Assembly (NCBI GenBank): GCA_026002875.1
Contig: BPGE01000001.1
Coordinates: 2,914,001-2,978,000 of the forward strand
Reading direction: 5' to 3'
Source: Bryobacteraceae bacterium
GTDB lineage: Bacteria; Acidobacteriota; Terriglobia; Bryobacterales; Bryobacteraceae
Length of the DNA: 64,000 nucleotides
Shown: piece by piece, positions 20,262 through 62,184 of the stretch
How the letters are laid out: each line of letters starts with the position of its first letter
Numbering within the stretch: position 1 is the stretch's first letter
Notes under the pieces: model-generated
Databases searched by the model: none
What the model saw: the letters and a program-made list of their open reading frames with translations, nothing else
What the model was told of the DNA's origin: nothing
Translations under genes and position numbers: made by a program

Positions 20262-20595
20262 CGCCCCTTCCCCAACGGGCTTCCTCTCGCGCTACGATTT
20301 CCCCTCGCGCTTGCCTCCAGACTTCCCCTCGCGCTTGCGCGAGGGCTGCATCCCAACCGTGCCCCCCTCGCCCTCTCCTGCGCACTTCCCCTCGCGCTTG
20401 CCTCCAGACTTCCCCTCGCGCTTGCGCGAGGGCTGCATCCCAACCGTGCCCCCCTCGCCCTCTCCTGCGGGCTTCCCCTCGCGCTTGCGCGAGGGCTGCA
20501 TCCCAACTGTACCCCCCGCGCCCTCTCCTGCGGGCTTCCCCTCGCGCTACGACTTCCCCTCGCACTCGCGCGCAGGCTGCATCCCAACCGTGCTT
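20262..20595 (-). repeat. Hairpin-repeat array 1 (four units, degenerate)
   Basis: Four copies of a unit read on the minus strand as GGTTGGGATGCAG, a nine-base hairpin (CCCTCGCGC, two bases, GCGCGAGGG) and GGAAGCCCGTTGGGG. The CAT of each unit is at 20349, 20436, 20499 and 20580. The 63-base step is the family norm; the 87- and 81-base steps contain extra partial copies of one hairpin arm (24 and 18 bases), suggesting slippage. The last unit has a mismatched stem. It fills the gap between two minus-strand genes. No ORF here is real. Confidence 0.9.
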
Positions 20596-25825: not shown

Positions 25826-26164
25826 GAGCAGCCGCGCAGAGAAACCGACACCCGAAAGAGAAAAACCCGCCCGGCGGCCCACTGTCTTGACGAGGCACGG
25901 CTGAACTTCCGGAGGGCGCGCGGCCGCCGCCCACGGGTCCACTCCACTGGGGCGCTGCACGGGCTGCAGCCGCGCCACGGGAGCCAGCCGGGCTGTCTGT
26001 CATCGGCCGATCGTCCCTGCCGGAGATGCGGCGCGGCGCTCCTCACCCGCCGCGCCGCTGCCGGAGGGCGGTGCGCCCCAGCCTCTTGTCCGTTTGAAGA
26101 AGCATGGCTCCGTCGCCGGGCTGCGCCCCCGAAAACTGCCCGTTTCCGGCAGCTGACGCGACCC
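25826..26164. other. Intergenic gap before repeat array 2
   Basis: About 340 bases between the SET gene and the repeat array with no gene that I can support. Open frames here run on from the repeat region and match nothing recognisable. Confidence 0.5.
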
Positions 26165-26720
26165 TCCCCCGCGGGTTTCCCGCCGCCCTTGGGCGGCGGC
26201 TCCATCCCAACCGTGCCGCCCGCGCCGTCCCCCACGGGTTTCCCCTCGCGCTTGCGCGAGGGCTGCATCCCAACCGTGCCCCCGCCGCCTTCCCCCACGG
26301 GTTTCCCCTCGCGCTTGCGCGAGGGCTGCATCCCAACCATGCCTCCCGCGCGCTCTCCTGCGGGTTTCCCCTCGGCCTTGGCCGAGGGCTGCATCCCAAC
26401 CGTGCCGCCCGCACCCTCCCCAACGGGTTTCCCCTCGCGCTTGCGCGAGGGCTGCATCCCAACCATGCCTCCCGCGCGCTCTCCTGCGGGTTTCCCCTCG
26501 GCCTTGGCCGAGGGCTGCATCCCAACCGTGCCGCCCGCACCCTCCCCAACGGGTTTCCCCTCGCGCTCGCGCGAGGGCTGCATCCCAACCGTGCCGCCGC
26601 GCCCTCCCCAACGCGTTCCCCCCCGCGCTTGCGCGAGGGCTGCATCCCAACCGTGCCGCCCGCGCCGTCCCCCACGGGTTTCCCCTCGCGCTCGCGCGAG
26701 GGCTGCATCCGAACCGTGTT
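26165..26720 (-). repeat. Hairpin-repeat array 2 (nine units, 63-base period, covarying stems)
   Basis: Nine units read on the minus strand. The CAT of each unit falls at 26203, 26266, 26329, 26392, 26455, 26518, 26581, 26643 and 26706, so the step is 63 bases except for one of 62. Stem sequences change but stay paired: plus-strand arms are CCGCCGCCC/GGGCGGCGG in unit 1, CCCTCGGCC/GGCCGAGGG in units 4 and 6 and CCCTCGCGC/GCGCGAGGG in most others, always around TT or TC. Units 3-4 and 5-6 form a 126-base higher-order repeat. It lies between two convergent genes. Confidence 0.92.
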
Positions 26721-26893
26721 CGCCCGGCACGCAGGAGCGAGCGGTCCCAAAGCGGCCTCAACTCAGGCCCCCGGCAGCACCCCTGAAAACCACCCTCAGA
26801 GCGTCGCGGGTCCGGACAAAACACCCGGTCCTGACTGCCGTCCTTCATGCGTGGCAGCCGGCATGCGGGCGGAGGCGGACAACGAATCAGGGG

Positions 26894-58400: not shown

Positions 58401-59549
58401 TCAGGGCAGGCAGAGCTTGCCGAGGACGGCGGGGCGGCGGGCGCCGGTGGCCGAGGGCAGGTTGGCCGGACGGCCTTCGAGGGTTTCGCGGGCGAGAATG
58501 GCGAAGGCGATGGCCTCCTTGGCGTCGGGGTCGATGCCGAAGACTTCGCTGCGGGCGACGTCGGAATCGGGCAGTTCGGCGCGGAGAAATCTGAGAAGCG
58601 TCTTGTTGTGGACGCCGCCGCCGCTGACGATGATCTGGTCCGGGGGATTGTCTTCGGCGCCGGCGAAGCGGGCGAGGCCTTCCGCAATGGCGGCGGCAGT
58701 GAAGTAGGTTGCGGTGGCGACGGTATCTTCGGGGCTGAGGCGGAATTCCAGCAGACGCTGGACGAAAGCGGCGCCGAACTGCTCGCGGCCGCAGGACTTG
58801 GGCGGCCTGAGGCGGAAATATTCGTCTTCGAGAAGCTGCTGGACGACGGAGGGGCAGACCTGGCCCGAGGCGGCGAAAGCGCCGTCGCGGTCCAAAGTGC
58901 GGCGGCCGGCGGTGAAGTGCGCCATGAGCTGATCGATGACCATGTTGCCGGGGCCGGTGTCGAAGGCGAGAACTTCTTCCGGTTTGCAGGCCGGAGGGAG
59001 GCAGGTGACATTGGCGATGCCTCCAATGTTGAGCGCGACGCGGCGGAGTCTGGGGTCTTTGAACAGGAGGTAATCAACGTAAGGAACGAGCGGCGCGCCC
59101 TGACCGCCGGCGGCGATGTCGGCGGGGCGGAAGTCGCAGACCACAGGCACGCCGGTGCGGGCGGCGAGAACGCTGCCGTCGCCGATCTGGAGGGTGGAGG
59201 CGATGCGGCGGCCAAGAAAGGACGCGGGGCGGCCCTCGTGATAGATGGTCTGGCCGTGGCAGCCGAGGACGGCGACCTGAGAGGGTTTGACGCGGGCTTT
59301 GCGGCAGGCTTCGAGGAAAGCCTCGGCGTAGAGCTCGGGGAGAAGGAAATGGAGGCGGGCGATGTCGCGGGTGTGGGTGTCCGTGTTCGAGACGGCAAGC
59401 AGGGCTTCGCGCAGAGTCGCGGGGTACGGGACGGTGTGGAAGGCGAGCGTCTGAACGCGGGCGCCGGAGAGTTCGACGAGGACGGCGTCGATGCCGTCGA
59501 GCGAAGTGCCGGACATGATGCCGCCGGCGAGGAGGGGTTTGCGGGGCAT
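58401..59549 (-). CDS. anmK: Anhydro-N-acetylmuramic acid kinase
   Basis: A 382-residue ASKHA-fold kinase: GIMSGTSLDGID at the start, CHGQTIYHE, NIGGIANVT and FDTGPGNMVID are diagnostic of AnmK. It phosphorylates and hydrolyses 1,6-anhydro-MurNAc for peptidoglycan recycling. The stop is about 57 bases from the GH95 start. A -10-like TATCCT and AGGA lie upstream of the ATG. Confidence 0.93.
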   Translation of the reverse strand: MPRKPLLAGGIMSGTSLDGIDAVLVELSGARVQTLAFHTVPYPATLREALLAVSNTDTHTRDIARLHFLLPELYAEAFLEACRKARVKPSQVAVLGCHGQTIYHEGRPASFLGRRIASTLQIGDGSVLAARTGVPVVCDFRPADIAAGGQGAPLVPYVDYLLFKDPRLRRVALNIGGIANVTCLPPACKPEEVLAFDTGPGNMVIDQLMAHFTAGRRTLDRDGAFAASGQVCPSVVQQLLEDEYFRLRPPKSCGREQFGAAFVQRLLEFRLSPEDTVATATYFTAAAIAEGLARFAGAEDNPPDQIIVSGGGVHNKTLLRFLRAELPDSDVARSEVFGIDPDAKEAIAFAILARETLEGRPANLPSATGARRPAVLGKLCLP

Positions 59550-59627
59550 GGGCTTTCCTAGGATAGCGGGGCGGGGTCATCGTTGTGAGATGGGATCCGG
59601 TACGGGAGCGGTCCTGGAGGCAGGGGG

Positions 59628-60858
59628 CACGGTTGGGATGCAGCCCTCGCGCGAGCGCGAGGGGAAGCCCGTTGGGGCACGGTTGGGATGCAGCCCTCGC
59701 GCAAGCGCGAGGGGAGGCCCGTTGGGGAGGGCTCGGGCAACACGGTTGGGATGCAGCCCTCGCGCAAGCGCGAGGGGAAACCCGTGGGGGCACGGTTGGG
59801 ATGCAGCCCTCGCGCGAGCGCGAGGGGAAGCCCGTTGGGGCACGGTTGGGATGCAGCCCTCGCGCGAGCGCGAGGGGAAGCCCGTTGGGGAGGGCTCGGG
59901 CAACACGGTTGGGATGCAGCCCTCGCGCGAGCGCGAGGGGAAGCCCGTTGGGGAGGGCTCGGGCAACACGGTTGGGATGCAGCCCTCGCGCAAGCGCGAG
60001 GGGAAGCCCGTTGGGGAGGGCTCGGGCAACACGGTTGGGATGCAGCCCTCGCGCGAGCGCGAGGGGAAGCCCGTTGGGGCACGGTTGGGATGCAGCCCTC
60101 GCGCAAGCGCGAGGGGAGGCCCGTTGGGGAGGGCTCGGGCAACACGGTTGGGATGCAGCCCTCGCGCGAGCGCGAGGGGAAGCCCGTTGGGGCACGGTTG
60201 GGATGCAGCCCTCGCGCAAGCGCGAGGGGAGGCCCGTTGGGGAGGGCTCGGGCAACACGGTTGGGATGCAGCCCTCGCGCGAGCGCGAGGGGAAGCCCGT
60301 TGGGGCACGGTTGGAATGCAGCCCTCGCGCAAGCGCGAGGGGAGGCCCGTTGGGGAGGGCTCGGGCAACACGGTTGGGATGCAGCCCTCGCGCGAGCGCG
60401 AGGGGAGGCCCGTTGGGGCACGGTTGGGATGCAGCCCTCGCGCAAGCGCGAGGGGAGGCCCGTTGGGGAGGGCTCGGGCAACACGGTTGGGATGCAGCCT
60501 TCGCGCAAGCGCGAGGGGAAACCCGTGGGGGCACGGTTGGGATGCAGCCCTCGCGCAAGCGCGAGGGGAAGCCCGTTGGGGCACGGTTGGGATGCAGCCC
60601 TCGCGCGAGCGCGAGGGGAGGCCCGTTGGGGCACGGTTGGGATGCAGCCCTCGCGCAAGCGCGAGGGGAAATCCGTTGGGGAGGGCTCGGGCAACACGGT
60701 TGGGATGCAGTCCTCGCGCAAGCGCGAGGGGAAACCCGTTGGGGCACGGTTGGGATGCAGCCCTCGCGCAAGCGCGAGGGGAGGCCCGTTGGGGAGGGCT
60801 CGGGCAACACGGTTGGGATGCAGCCCTCGCGCAAGCGCGAGGGCAAGCCCGTGGGCGG
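59628..60858 (+). repeat. Hairpin-repeat array 3 (22 units, 50/63-base periods)
   Basis: Twenty-two units beginning GGTTGGGATGCAG at 59631, 59681, 59744, 59794, 59844, 59907, 59970, 60033, 60083, 60146, 60196, 60259, 60309, 60372, 60422, 60485, 60535, 60585, 60635, 60698, 60748 and 60811. Every step is exactly 50 or 63 bases; the long form adds AGGGCTCGGGCAA before CACGG. Each unit has arms CCCTCGCGC and GCGCGAGGG around AA or GA, then GGAAGCCCGTTGGGG or a close variant. From 60033 to 60485 a 113-base dimer (GA-short, AA-long) repeats four times. It lies between anmK and the TolC-like gene, both on the minus strand, and is opposite in orientation to arrays 1 and 2. Confidence 0.95.
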
Positions 60859-60897
60859 ACGGCGGCAAACCGCGGGGCAGGAGGGAAGCCGCGGGGG

Positions 60898-62184
60898 TCA
60901 GCGGAGGGCGGCTTCGAGGGTGTGGGTGCGGCGGAGGAGCTCGAGGCGCGCGAGCTCGAGATCGTGGACGGCGTTATAAAACAGAATCCACCGTTCCTGT
61001 TCCTGGAAGCGGGCCTGTTCGAGGTCGCGGAGAGAGGCGCGGCCTTCTTCCATGCGGGCGAGGGCGAGGGAGACCTGTTCCCGGCTGAGGTCGAGGTCCA
61101 TGCGGGCGAGCTCGCGGGCGGCTTCGGCGTCGCGGAGTCTCTGCCAGGCCTGGCGGATTTCGGTTTCGGCGCGGCGGCGGTGCTGCTGGATCTGCGCCTG
61201 GAGGCGGCGGGCTTCGATTTCGGCCTGGGCGGCGCGCGCCTCGTCCTGGCTGCTGGAGAAGAGCGGGATCTGGATCGAAGCGCCGAGCTGGCCGTTGTGG
61301 CGCTCGAAGCGGTTGAAGAATTTCTCGTAGTTGTTGAACTTGGCCAGCAGGCCGTATTGAGCCACCAGATCGATGCGGGGCAGGCGCATGGCGCGGAAGG
61401 AACGGGCCTGGAGATTTTTGGCGGCGACTTCGGCTTCGAGGCGGCGGATTTCGGGATCCTCGCGCAGGGCGGCGGCGACAGAGGCTTCTTCTTCGAGGGG
61501 GATTTCGGGAGCCGGGCGGTCTTCGGGGGCGGGGAGGATTTCTTCGGCAGGCTCGAGTCCGAGGGCGGAGGCGAGGGCGAGGGAAGCGGCCTTGCGCTGC
61601 GAGTCGAGCTGCTGGAGGCGGAGGCGGGCGCGGGCGGTTTCGAGCGCGGCGCGGCGGGCTTCGATGGGGGTTTCGCGGCCTTCCCCGGCGCGGAGGCGGG
61701 TGGCGGCTTCAATGCGCTGCGCGTGTTCGAGCTGGCGCCGGGCGGCTTCCGACTGGCGGGCGAGGCGTTCGAGATCGAGGAACAGCGCGGCGACGCGGAG
61801 GGTGGCGTCTTCGCGGACGACGGCGGAGGCGGCGGTGGCGGCGCGGGCGGTTTCGCGGGCGGAGGCGACCTGGTAGCCCTGGGGCCGGTTCCAGAGGGTG
61901 CGGACGCCTTTGGCCTGGACGACGGCGGGGGTGGCACCTTCGATGGACATGGGCATGCCGCTGGAATAGGCGAGTCCGCTTCCGGTGAAGACGCGCGGCA
62001 GGAGGGGTTCGCGCACGGCCTGGACTTCGAGCGCGGCGCGCTGTTCGTCCAGGCGGGCGAGAACGACCTCGGGGCTCTGGCGCGAGGCGAGCTCGACCGC
62101 CTGCTTCAGAGTGAGCACGCGGGGTTCGGCCAGAGAAGGCGAAAGACAAACGAGGAAGGCGAGTAGGGTCCGCATGGCTGACAT
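60898..62184 (-). CDS. TolC-family outer-membrane efflux protein
   Basis: A 428-residue protein with a signal peptide (LLAFLVCLSPSLA) and two long coiled-coil halves typical of TolC/OMF (LTLKQAVELASRQSPEV at the start; the second half near DPEIRRLEAEVAAKNLQARS). These form trimeric outer-membrane channels for efflux or type I secretion. The start at 62184 (MSAMRTLL) is chosen for the signal; a shorter start is at 62175. Open frame to 62526 upstream is spurious. No partner membrane-fusion protein is in the window. Confidence 0.82.
   Translation of the reverse strand: MSAMRTLLAFLVCLSPSLAEPRVLTLKQAVELASRQSPEVVLARLDEQRAALEVQAVREPLLPRVFTGSGLAYSSGMPMSIEGATPAVVQAKGVRTLWNRPQGYQVASARETARAATAASAVVREDATLRVAALFLDLERLARQSEAARRQLEHAQRIEAATRLRAGEGRETPIEARRAALETARARLRLQQLDSQRKAASLALASALGLEPAEEILPAPEDRPAPEIPLEEEASVAAALREDPEIRRLEAEVAAKNLQARSFRAMRLPRIDLVAQYGLLAKFNNYEKFFNRFERHNGQLGASIQIPLFSSSQDEARAAQAEIEARRLQAQIQQHRRRAETEIRQAWQRLRDAEAARELARMDLDLSREQVSLALARMEEGRASLRDLEQARFQEQERWILFYNAVHDLELARLELLRRTHTLEAALR

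Follow-up and report, generated by a model that had tools for sequence, protein, structure and literature searches.

A head-to-tail hairpin array in a Bryobacteraceae genome belongs to a dispersed REP-like family that was probably spread by a class-3-type Y1 transposase

The window analysed here, a stretch of 64,000 nucleotides, comes from the genome of a member of the Bryobacteraceae, a family of Acidobacteria; the genome is a single contig of 4,863,736 bp. Towards its right end the window carries an array of hairpins between two genes that lie on the same strand, so placed that the array is upstream of the start of the AnmK gene and downstream of the end of the TolC-like gene. Two smaller clusters of the same unit family lie elsewhere in the window:

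58401..59549, minus strand: left neighbour, gene for AnmK (anhydro-N-acetylmuramic acid kinase; PF03702, 1.1e-109)
59628..60858, plus strand: hairpin array of 22 head-to-tail units with periods of 50 and 63 bp
59627..59680, plus strand: stretch with one unit of the 50-bp form, consisting of flank GCACGGTTGGGATGCAG, stem CCCTCGCGC, loop GA and GCGCGAGGG, then GGAAGCCCGTTGGGG
59677..59740, plus strand: stretch with one unit of the 63-bp (general) form, with tail AGGGCTCGGGCAA
60898..62118, minus strand: right neighbour, gene for a TolC-like outer-membrane efflux protein (PF02321, 7.9e-35)
20299..20548, minus strand: second cluster, 3 units, with steps of 63 and 87 bp
26157..26726, minus strand: third cluster, 9 units, with steps of 62–63 bp; some stems are CCCTCGGCC

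Units of the main array start at 59628, 59678, 59741 and so on to 60808. A recount reproduced exactly the 22 units and 21 steps of the first-pass annotation, with 11 steps of 50 bp and 10 of 63 bp in the order SLSSLLLSLSLSLSLSSSLSL; the 63-bp form differs from the 50-bp form by AGGGCTCGGGCAA. Short and long steps alternate at 15 of 20 neighbouring positions, a value reached by 341 of 10,000 shuffles, and the longest exact internal repeat, 196 bp, has an offset of 113 bp, the length of one short plus one long step. Between 59400 and 61000 an Rfam scan gave no match at E values up to 1, and neither sigma-70 promoters nor T-run terminators were found. Folding energies of single units were no better than those of shuffled sequence (z of −0.5 to −0.9), while a two-unit stretch gave a z of −1.6. 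The interval 59550–60897 is also a synteny junction, at which homology with four same-genus genomes stops near the AnmK start; in those genomes the TolC-like gene is found at a different place or on a different contig. The edges of any insertion are consequently unreadable at this locus, and comparison with the four relatives demonstrates no empty site.

The unit consensus, GCACGGTTGGGATGCAG-CCCTCGCGC-AA-GCGCGAGGG-GAAACCCGnTGGGGAGG, describes a unit of ∼63 bp that is made up of a conserved 5′ flank, a 9-bp hairpin with a 2-nt loop, a conserved 3′ flank and a GC-rich tail. Stems of the types CCCTCGCGC, CCCTCGGCC, CCGCCGCCC and CCATCGCGC are accompanied by their exact partners in 284, 63, 21 and 18 units, respectively. 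Pairing was assessed in 68 of 99 listed units, taken for an exact GATGCAGCC flank and no more than one stem mismatch, a choice that itself favours pairing; 98.0% of the 612 stem cells were paired, as compared with at most 62.4% in slid versions, and 69 cells were doubly changed, reflecting few events, as compared with 20.1 ± 3.3 in shuffles. When units were found through the 5′ flank alone, 435 of 529 matches carried a 9-bp stem with two mismatches or fewer, 386 of them perfect, so that the units are short palindromes of the kind that defines REP elements. The stem sequence thus changes while its pairing is kept, by compensating change. The remaining 94 flank matches, which include units broken by an insertion element as well as chance matches, were dropped.

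The family extends throughout the genome. A 24-base unit pattern (two mismatches or fewer) has 384 matches and none when read backwards, and an 18-mer (one mismatch or none) occurs in 370 places. The stretches fetched for analysis, which with the window amount to 539,038 bases or 11% of the genome, were chosen for holding units or transposases; they cover 340 of the 370 18-mer matches and leave 30 outside. A covariance model scored 150 of 8,791 first-look candidates, a list that served only to find more clusters and does not enter the census. Within the fetched stretches the 435 units form 62 clusters, of which 12 are single units, 30 have at least five units and 17 at least 10. All 373 neighbouring pairs (within 400 bp of one another) are on the same strand, head to tail, and none is inverted. 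Steps of 60–66 bp account for 258 of these 373 and are found in 40 of the 50 multi-unit clusters; other periods (102/103, 40/43 and 50/63 bp) characterize certain loci. At one of these (L027:5073-7200) the unit of 102/103 bp contains, besides the hairpin, a second motif, AACCGCTTGCTCTCGCGGGT, and similar motifs close some other arrays.

None of the 435 units lies inside a called gene, as compared with 76% of random positions, the calls coming from a simple codon model made for this analysis; with 370 18-mer matches the family is thus both high-copy and extragenic, as REP elements are. That the arrays might code for a repeat protein is suggested by the open frames, several hundred codons long, that run across the window array, and is hardly credible given that steps of 50, 43, 40 and 64 bp shift the frame and that no unit falls within a called gene. 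Neighbouring genes were examined for 61 of the 62 clusters. Units occupy 21 of 28 gaps of at least 100 bp between convergent genes and 33 of 130 other gaps (Fisher p 1.3e-6, in stretches chosen for units or transposases), which, with the conserved stem pairing, could be read as selection at 3′ ends for a functional RNA or a protein-binding array, such as a terminator, an mRNA stabilizer, or a nucleoid-protein or gyrase site. We give this reading only a slim chance. The location is explained just as well if units avoid genes and promoters, the array in the window sits between two genes of the same strand, and its surroundings returned neither an Rfam match nor a T-run terminator or sigma-70 site (59400–61000). 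In addition, the unit is nearly absent from same-genus relatives, which argues that it meets no ancestral need. A functional RNA or protein-binding activity could be a secondary role of the units.

Palindromic repeats at near-regular spacing also recall a CRISPR array. The first-pass annotation had set this aside, and the wider census bears it out: the apparent spacers are parts of the unit, shared within and partly between loci instead of being unique, and the family occupies dozens of loci, with single units making up 12 of the 62 clusters. We regard a CRISPR origin as practically discounted.

The relation between the two step lengths has to be turned round. The long form had been described as the short form plus a 13-base insert, a polarity that finds no support in the family as a whole, since the 50-bp step is confined to one of the 50 multi-unit clusters, the window array, whereas 60–66-bp steps occur in 40 of the 50. 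The 13-base tail absent from the 50-bp form also recurs, in five exact copies, in another array (L088). Most simply, therefore, the short form arose when the general 63-bp form lost 13 bp at this locus. Tails from one locus resemble each other more closely than tails from different loci (identity 0.84 and 0.68, respectively, for 258 units at 40 loci; 0 of 1000 permutations).

We found three candidate Y1 transposase genes in the genome, two by a Pfam Y1_Tnp search and one more by protein search. They are listed below together with an insertion element that adjoins one of them:

L025:5326-7047 (G000:C1:2165825-2167546): IS1182-family element with a 500-aa transposase (NCBIfam, 9.6e-111)
G000:C1:2167718-2168164 (L025:7219-7668), outside the window: RAYT1, Y1/HUH transposase gene, 149 aa (Pfam Y1_Tnp, 2.5e-6)
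L080: RAYT2, class-3-like transposase gene
L005:1432-2160: RAYT3 (NCBIfam REP-associated transposase, 78.6 bits, just below the cut-off of 80)

RAYT1 has a reading frame without internal stop. It is flanked on both sides by units of the family, at 2165681 and 2165761 before the gene and at 2168260 and 2168328 after it, as is usual for the transposases of REP elements; the intact upstream units are separated from it by the 1.7-kb IS1182-family element. Against the NCBIfam REP-transposase profile RAYT1 scores 19 bits (cut-off 80), and a search of solved structures with its sequence returned two matches of no significance (E values of 0.16 and 0.25). Class 3 of the TnpA-Y1 superfamily is characterized by the motifs NHVH, W[TA] and YV[VI][AENY]EQ and occurs mainly in Planctomycetes, Acidobacteria and Proteobacteria, according to PMC6006769. 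RAYT1 carries the corresponding HUH, W[TA] and Y----Q motifs as THVHLI, WADY and EYVVEKQG. Among RAYT1-like proteins, 37 of 38 rows of an alignment keep the H-h-H, Y and Q positions of the signature; the alignment includes RAYT1 twice and one gene of genome G059 twice, and one row aligned no motif. By these motifs RAYT1 looks like a member of class 3. RAYT2 fits the H-h-H and Y----Q pattern and, in this alignment, fits less well at the W motif, where it has WSRH in place of WADY.

The other two genes have repeats of their own. RAYT2 is flanked on both sides by a different palindromic repeat (126 bp at 90% identity). This second repeat, AACGGAGCCGCGCGGGAGCAGCCCGAAGGGCTGCGACCAAGCGGTT, lies in direct orientation around RAYT2 (L080, G000:C1:2182253-2182627), occurs in 20 other stretches and has 56 copies in the stretches searched, at four mismatches or fewer of a 29-base core. 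RAYT3 is flanked by an inverted repeat. Matching sequence was present on both sides of the gene at 22 of 33 RAYT1-like loci, as compared with 10 of 99 mismatched controls. The notion that direct copies invariably flank class 3 genes had to be given up, because the 33 loci comprised 12 with direct copies, 10 with inverted copies and 11 with none; the controls comprised 1, 9 and 89, respectively. Around several RAYT1-like genes (L048-L069) lies, mostly in inverted orientation, a motif resembling CCGAGCCGCGACCGTAAGGGAGCGGT; with its CCGA foot, it may represent the hairpin typical of class 3.

The family has close counterparts among described systems. In the accessible parts of PMC6006769, class 3 genes are flanked by atypical hairpins (‘atypical secondary structures’) with the foot CnGA, and ∼600 copies of such hairpins are reported in Solibacter usitatus. 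The present system resembles this description in the H-h-H, W and Y----Q motifs of its enzyme, in an acidobacterial host, in a gene flanked by genome-abundant hairpins and in having more than one class-3-like gene in the genome (RAYT1 and RAYT2). It differs from class 3 as described there in the strict head-to-tail arrays, and may differ in the foot of the unit, which is CnGA at the expected side in 104 of 435 units and CGGG in 299. With REP elements, BIMEs and REPINs and their RAYTs, as far as the consulted portions of PMC2817692, PMC3733652 and PMC8266576 describe them, it shares short extragenic palindromes in hundreds of copies, complementary stem changes, a cognate Y1 transposase flanked by copies and common clustering; unlike them, it has no GTAG or CGTC tag, neither type standing beside the stem in the consensus GCACGGTTGGGATGCAG...GGGGAAACCCG of 68 units. 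Published REPs also occur mostly as inverted pairs, whereas inverted neighbours number 0 of 373 here. The family is thus neither a GTAG/CGTC REP nor a BIME or REPIN. The best reading is that it works like a REP system with a transposase of class 3 type and is unusual in being strictly head to tail.

The first-pass annotation had proposed a search of related genomes, and among 150 genomes of the order, copies being counted in each, the unit was present in seven besides its own, six of which hold one match each and one of which (G040) holds six. Four same-genus genomes had 0, 1, 1 and 6 matches. A pattern scan of GTDB-based contigs, from which the record of the own genome was possibly left out, found only CAKZUE01 (uncultured Bryobacteraceae bacterium), at the match positions of G040. 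No close RAYT1 was found in any of the four same-genus genomes at an E value of 1e-12; three had none, and the best in G040 was 35% identical.

Where arrays can be compared between the two genomes, their lengths differ. At one locus CAKZUE01 has a single unit (L008) and the own genome 24 (L033), between flanks that are 87% and 85% identical; at another it has four (L007) and the own genome 23 (L026). The low counts for CAKZUE01 were read from an assembly in 90 contigs, in which arrays may be partly collapsed. Around the second array ∼5.3 kb (L007:454-5840) are mostly 98–100% identical, falling to 96–97% in three windows at the array, and identity drops to ∼88% to the right of the segment, which has the appearance of a recent transfer or recombination patch containing the array. 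Unless that assembly collapsed the array, a segment so alike with 23 and 4 units indicates that it was shared recently and that the array has changed length since. Together with the likeness of tails within loci, such differences in copy number point to expansion that is local and fast, in agreement with the recent local expansion proposed at first pass.

In the genus of the nearest RAYT1 homologues (g11), at least two tandem hairpins of other sequence lie beside the gene at four of eight loci (L042, L043, L044 and L082); by the same test L041 has a single hairpin and three loci (L047, L057 and L084) have none. At L082 (G059:C1:4697841-4699880) three tandem RAYT1-like genes lie 810 bp apart, and hairpins spaced 178–181 bp apart lie between and after them. 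The one g11 hairpin pattern that was tried had five exact copies in one genome, seven in another and none in the remaining four, which leaves hairpin abundance in g11 unsupported.

Minisatellite or VNTR arrays expand locally in tandem and differ in length between relatives, and the window-array family is like them in this. One could therefore suppose a plain minisatellite, made by slippage or recombination alone, among whose units RAYT1 landed by chance; homogenization within loci, locus-specific periods and copies of short-plus-long dimers need nothing further. We think this unlikely. Slippage is unable to carry one unit to ∼60 intergenic clusters, and the family differs from a minisatellite precisely in its dispersal and in its tie to a transposase: units lie on both sides of RAYT1, matching flanks were found at 22 of 33 RAYT1-like loci against 10 of 99 controls, and tandem hairpins of different sequence stand beside the gene at four of eight loci in another genus.

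We consider it probable that a REP-like family was dispersed by RAYT1 and subsequently expanded in tandem at individual loci; what ties RAYT1 to the arrays is its flanking position and the one genome that holds both. RAYT1 would cut and rejoin single-stranded hairpin DNA, so that single units reach new intergenic sites. Once two units lie adjacent, replication slippage at hairpins, unequal recombination or both would make and homogenize the arrays, giving each locus its own period. In the window array a 13-bp deletion would have produced the 50-bp unit, after which dimers of 50 + 63 bp (113 bp) would have been copied repeatedly. The first-pass reading of the array thus held for its recent local expansion and for its not being a CRISPR, failed in the polarity of the insert, and missed the two further clusters in the window, the genome-wide family, its dispersal and the transposase. 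A more radical proposal, which we think possible though doubtful, makes enzymes of the RAYT1 branch of class 3 tandem amplifiers: instead of forming inverted pairs they would copy the hairpin head to tail, for example by cutting and rejoining its foot again and again while the lagging strand is synthesized, and would thereby build and resize arrays very fast in evolutionary terms.

The spread of REP-type palindromes still awaits an explanation, and class 3, according to PMC6006769, still needs experimental work. In this genome one open transposase gene is found together with more than 400 similar sequences that are candidate substrates, array lengths vary between loci, and relatives lack a close enzyme; the strict head-to-tail order provides a clean contrast to BIMEs and REPINs. 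With 23 and four units inside a mostly near-identical ∼5.3-kb segment, arrays may grow quickly enough for the process to be followed directly. We found no paper on tandem repeats in Bryobacteraceae genomes.

Inverted repeats have been reported as targets of IS1272 (PMC5678879). The ends of the IS1182-family element beside RAYT1, GGTYTGTGAARAAAT, are also borne by other, shorter stretches, and occur in L009, L016, L022, L039 and L092 as well. In the whole genome all 12 exact GGTYTGTGAARAAAT ends abut one half of a unit-family hairpin (11 identified by script and the twelfth, at a degenerate unit, by eye), and the element therefore seems to target the hairpin loop of the unit family.
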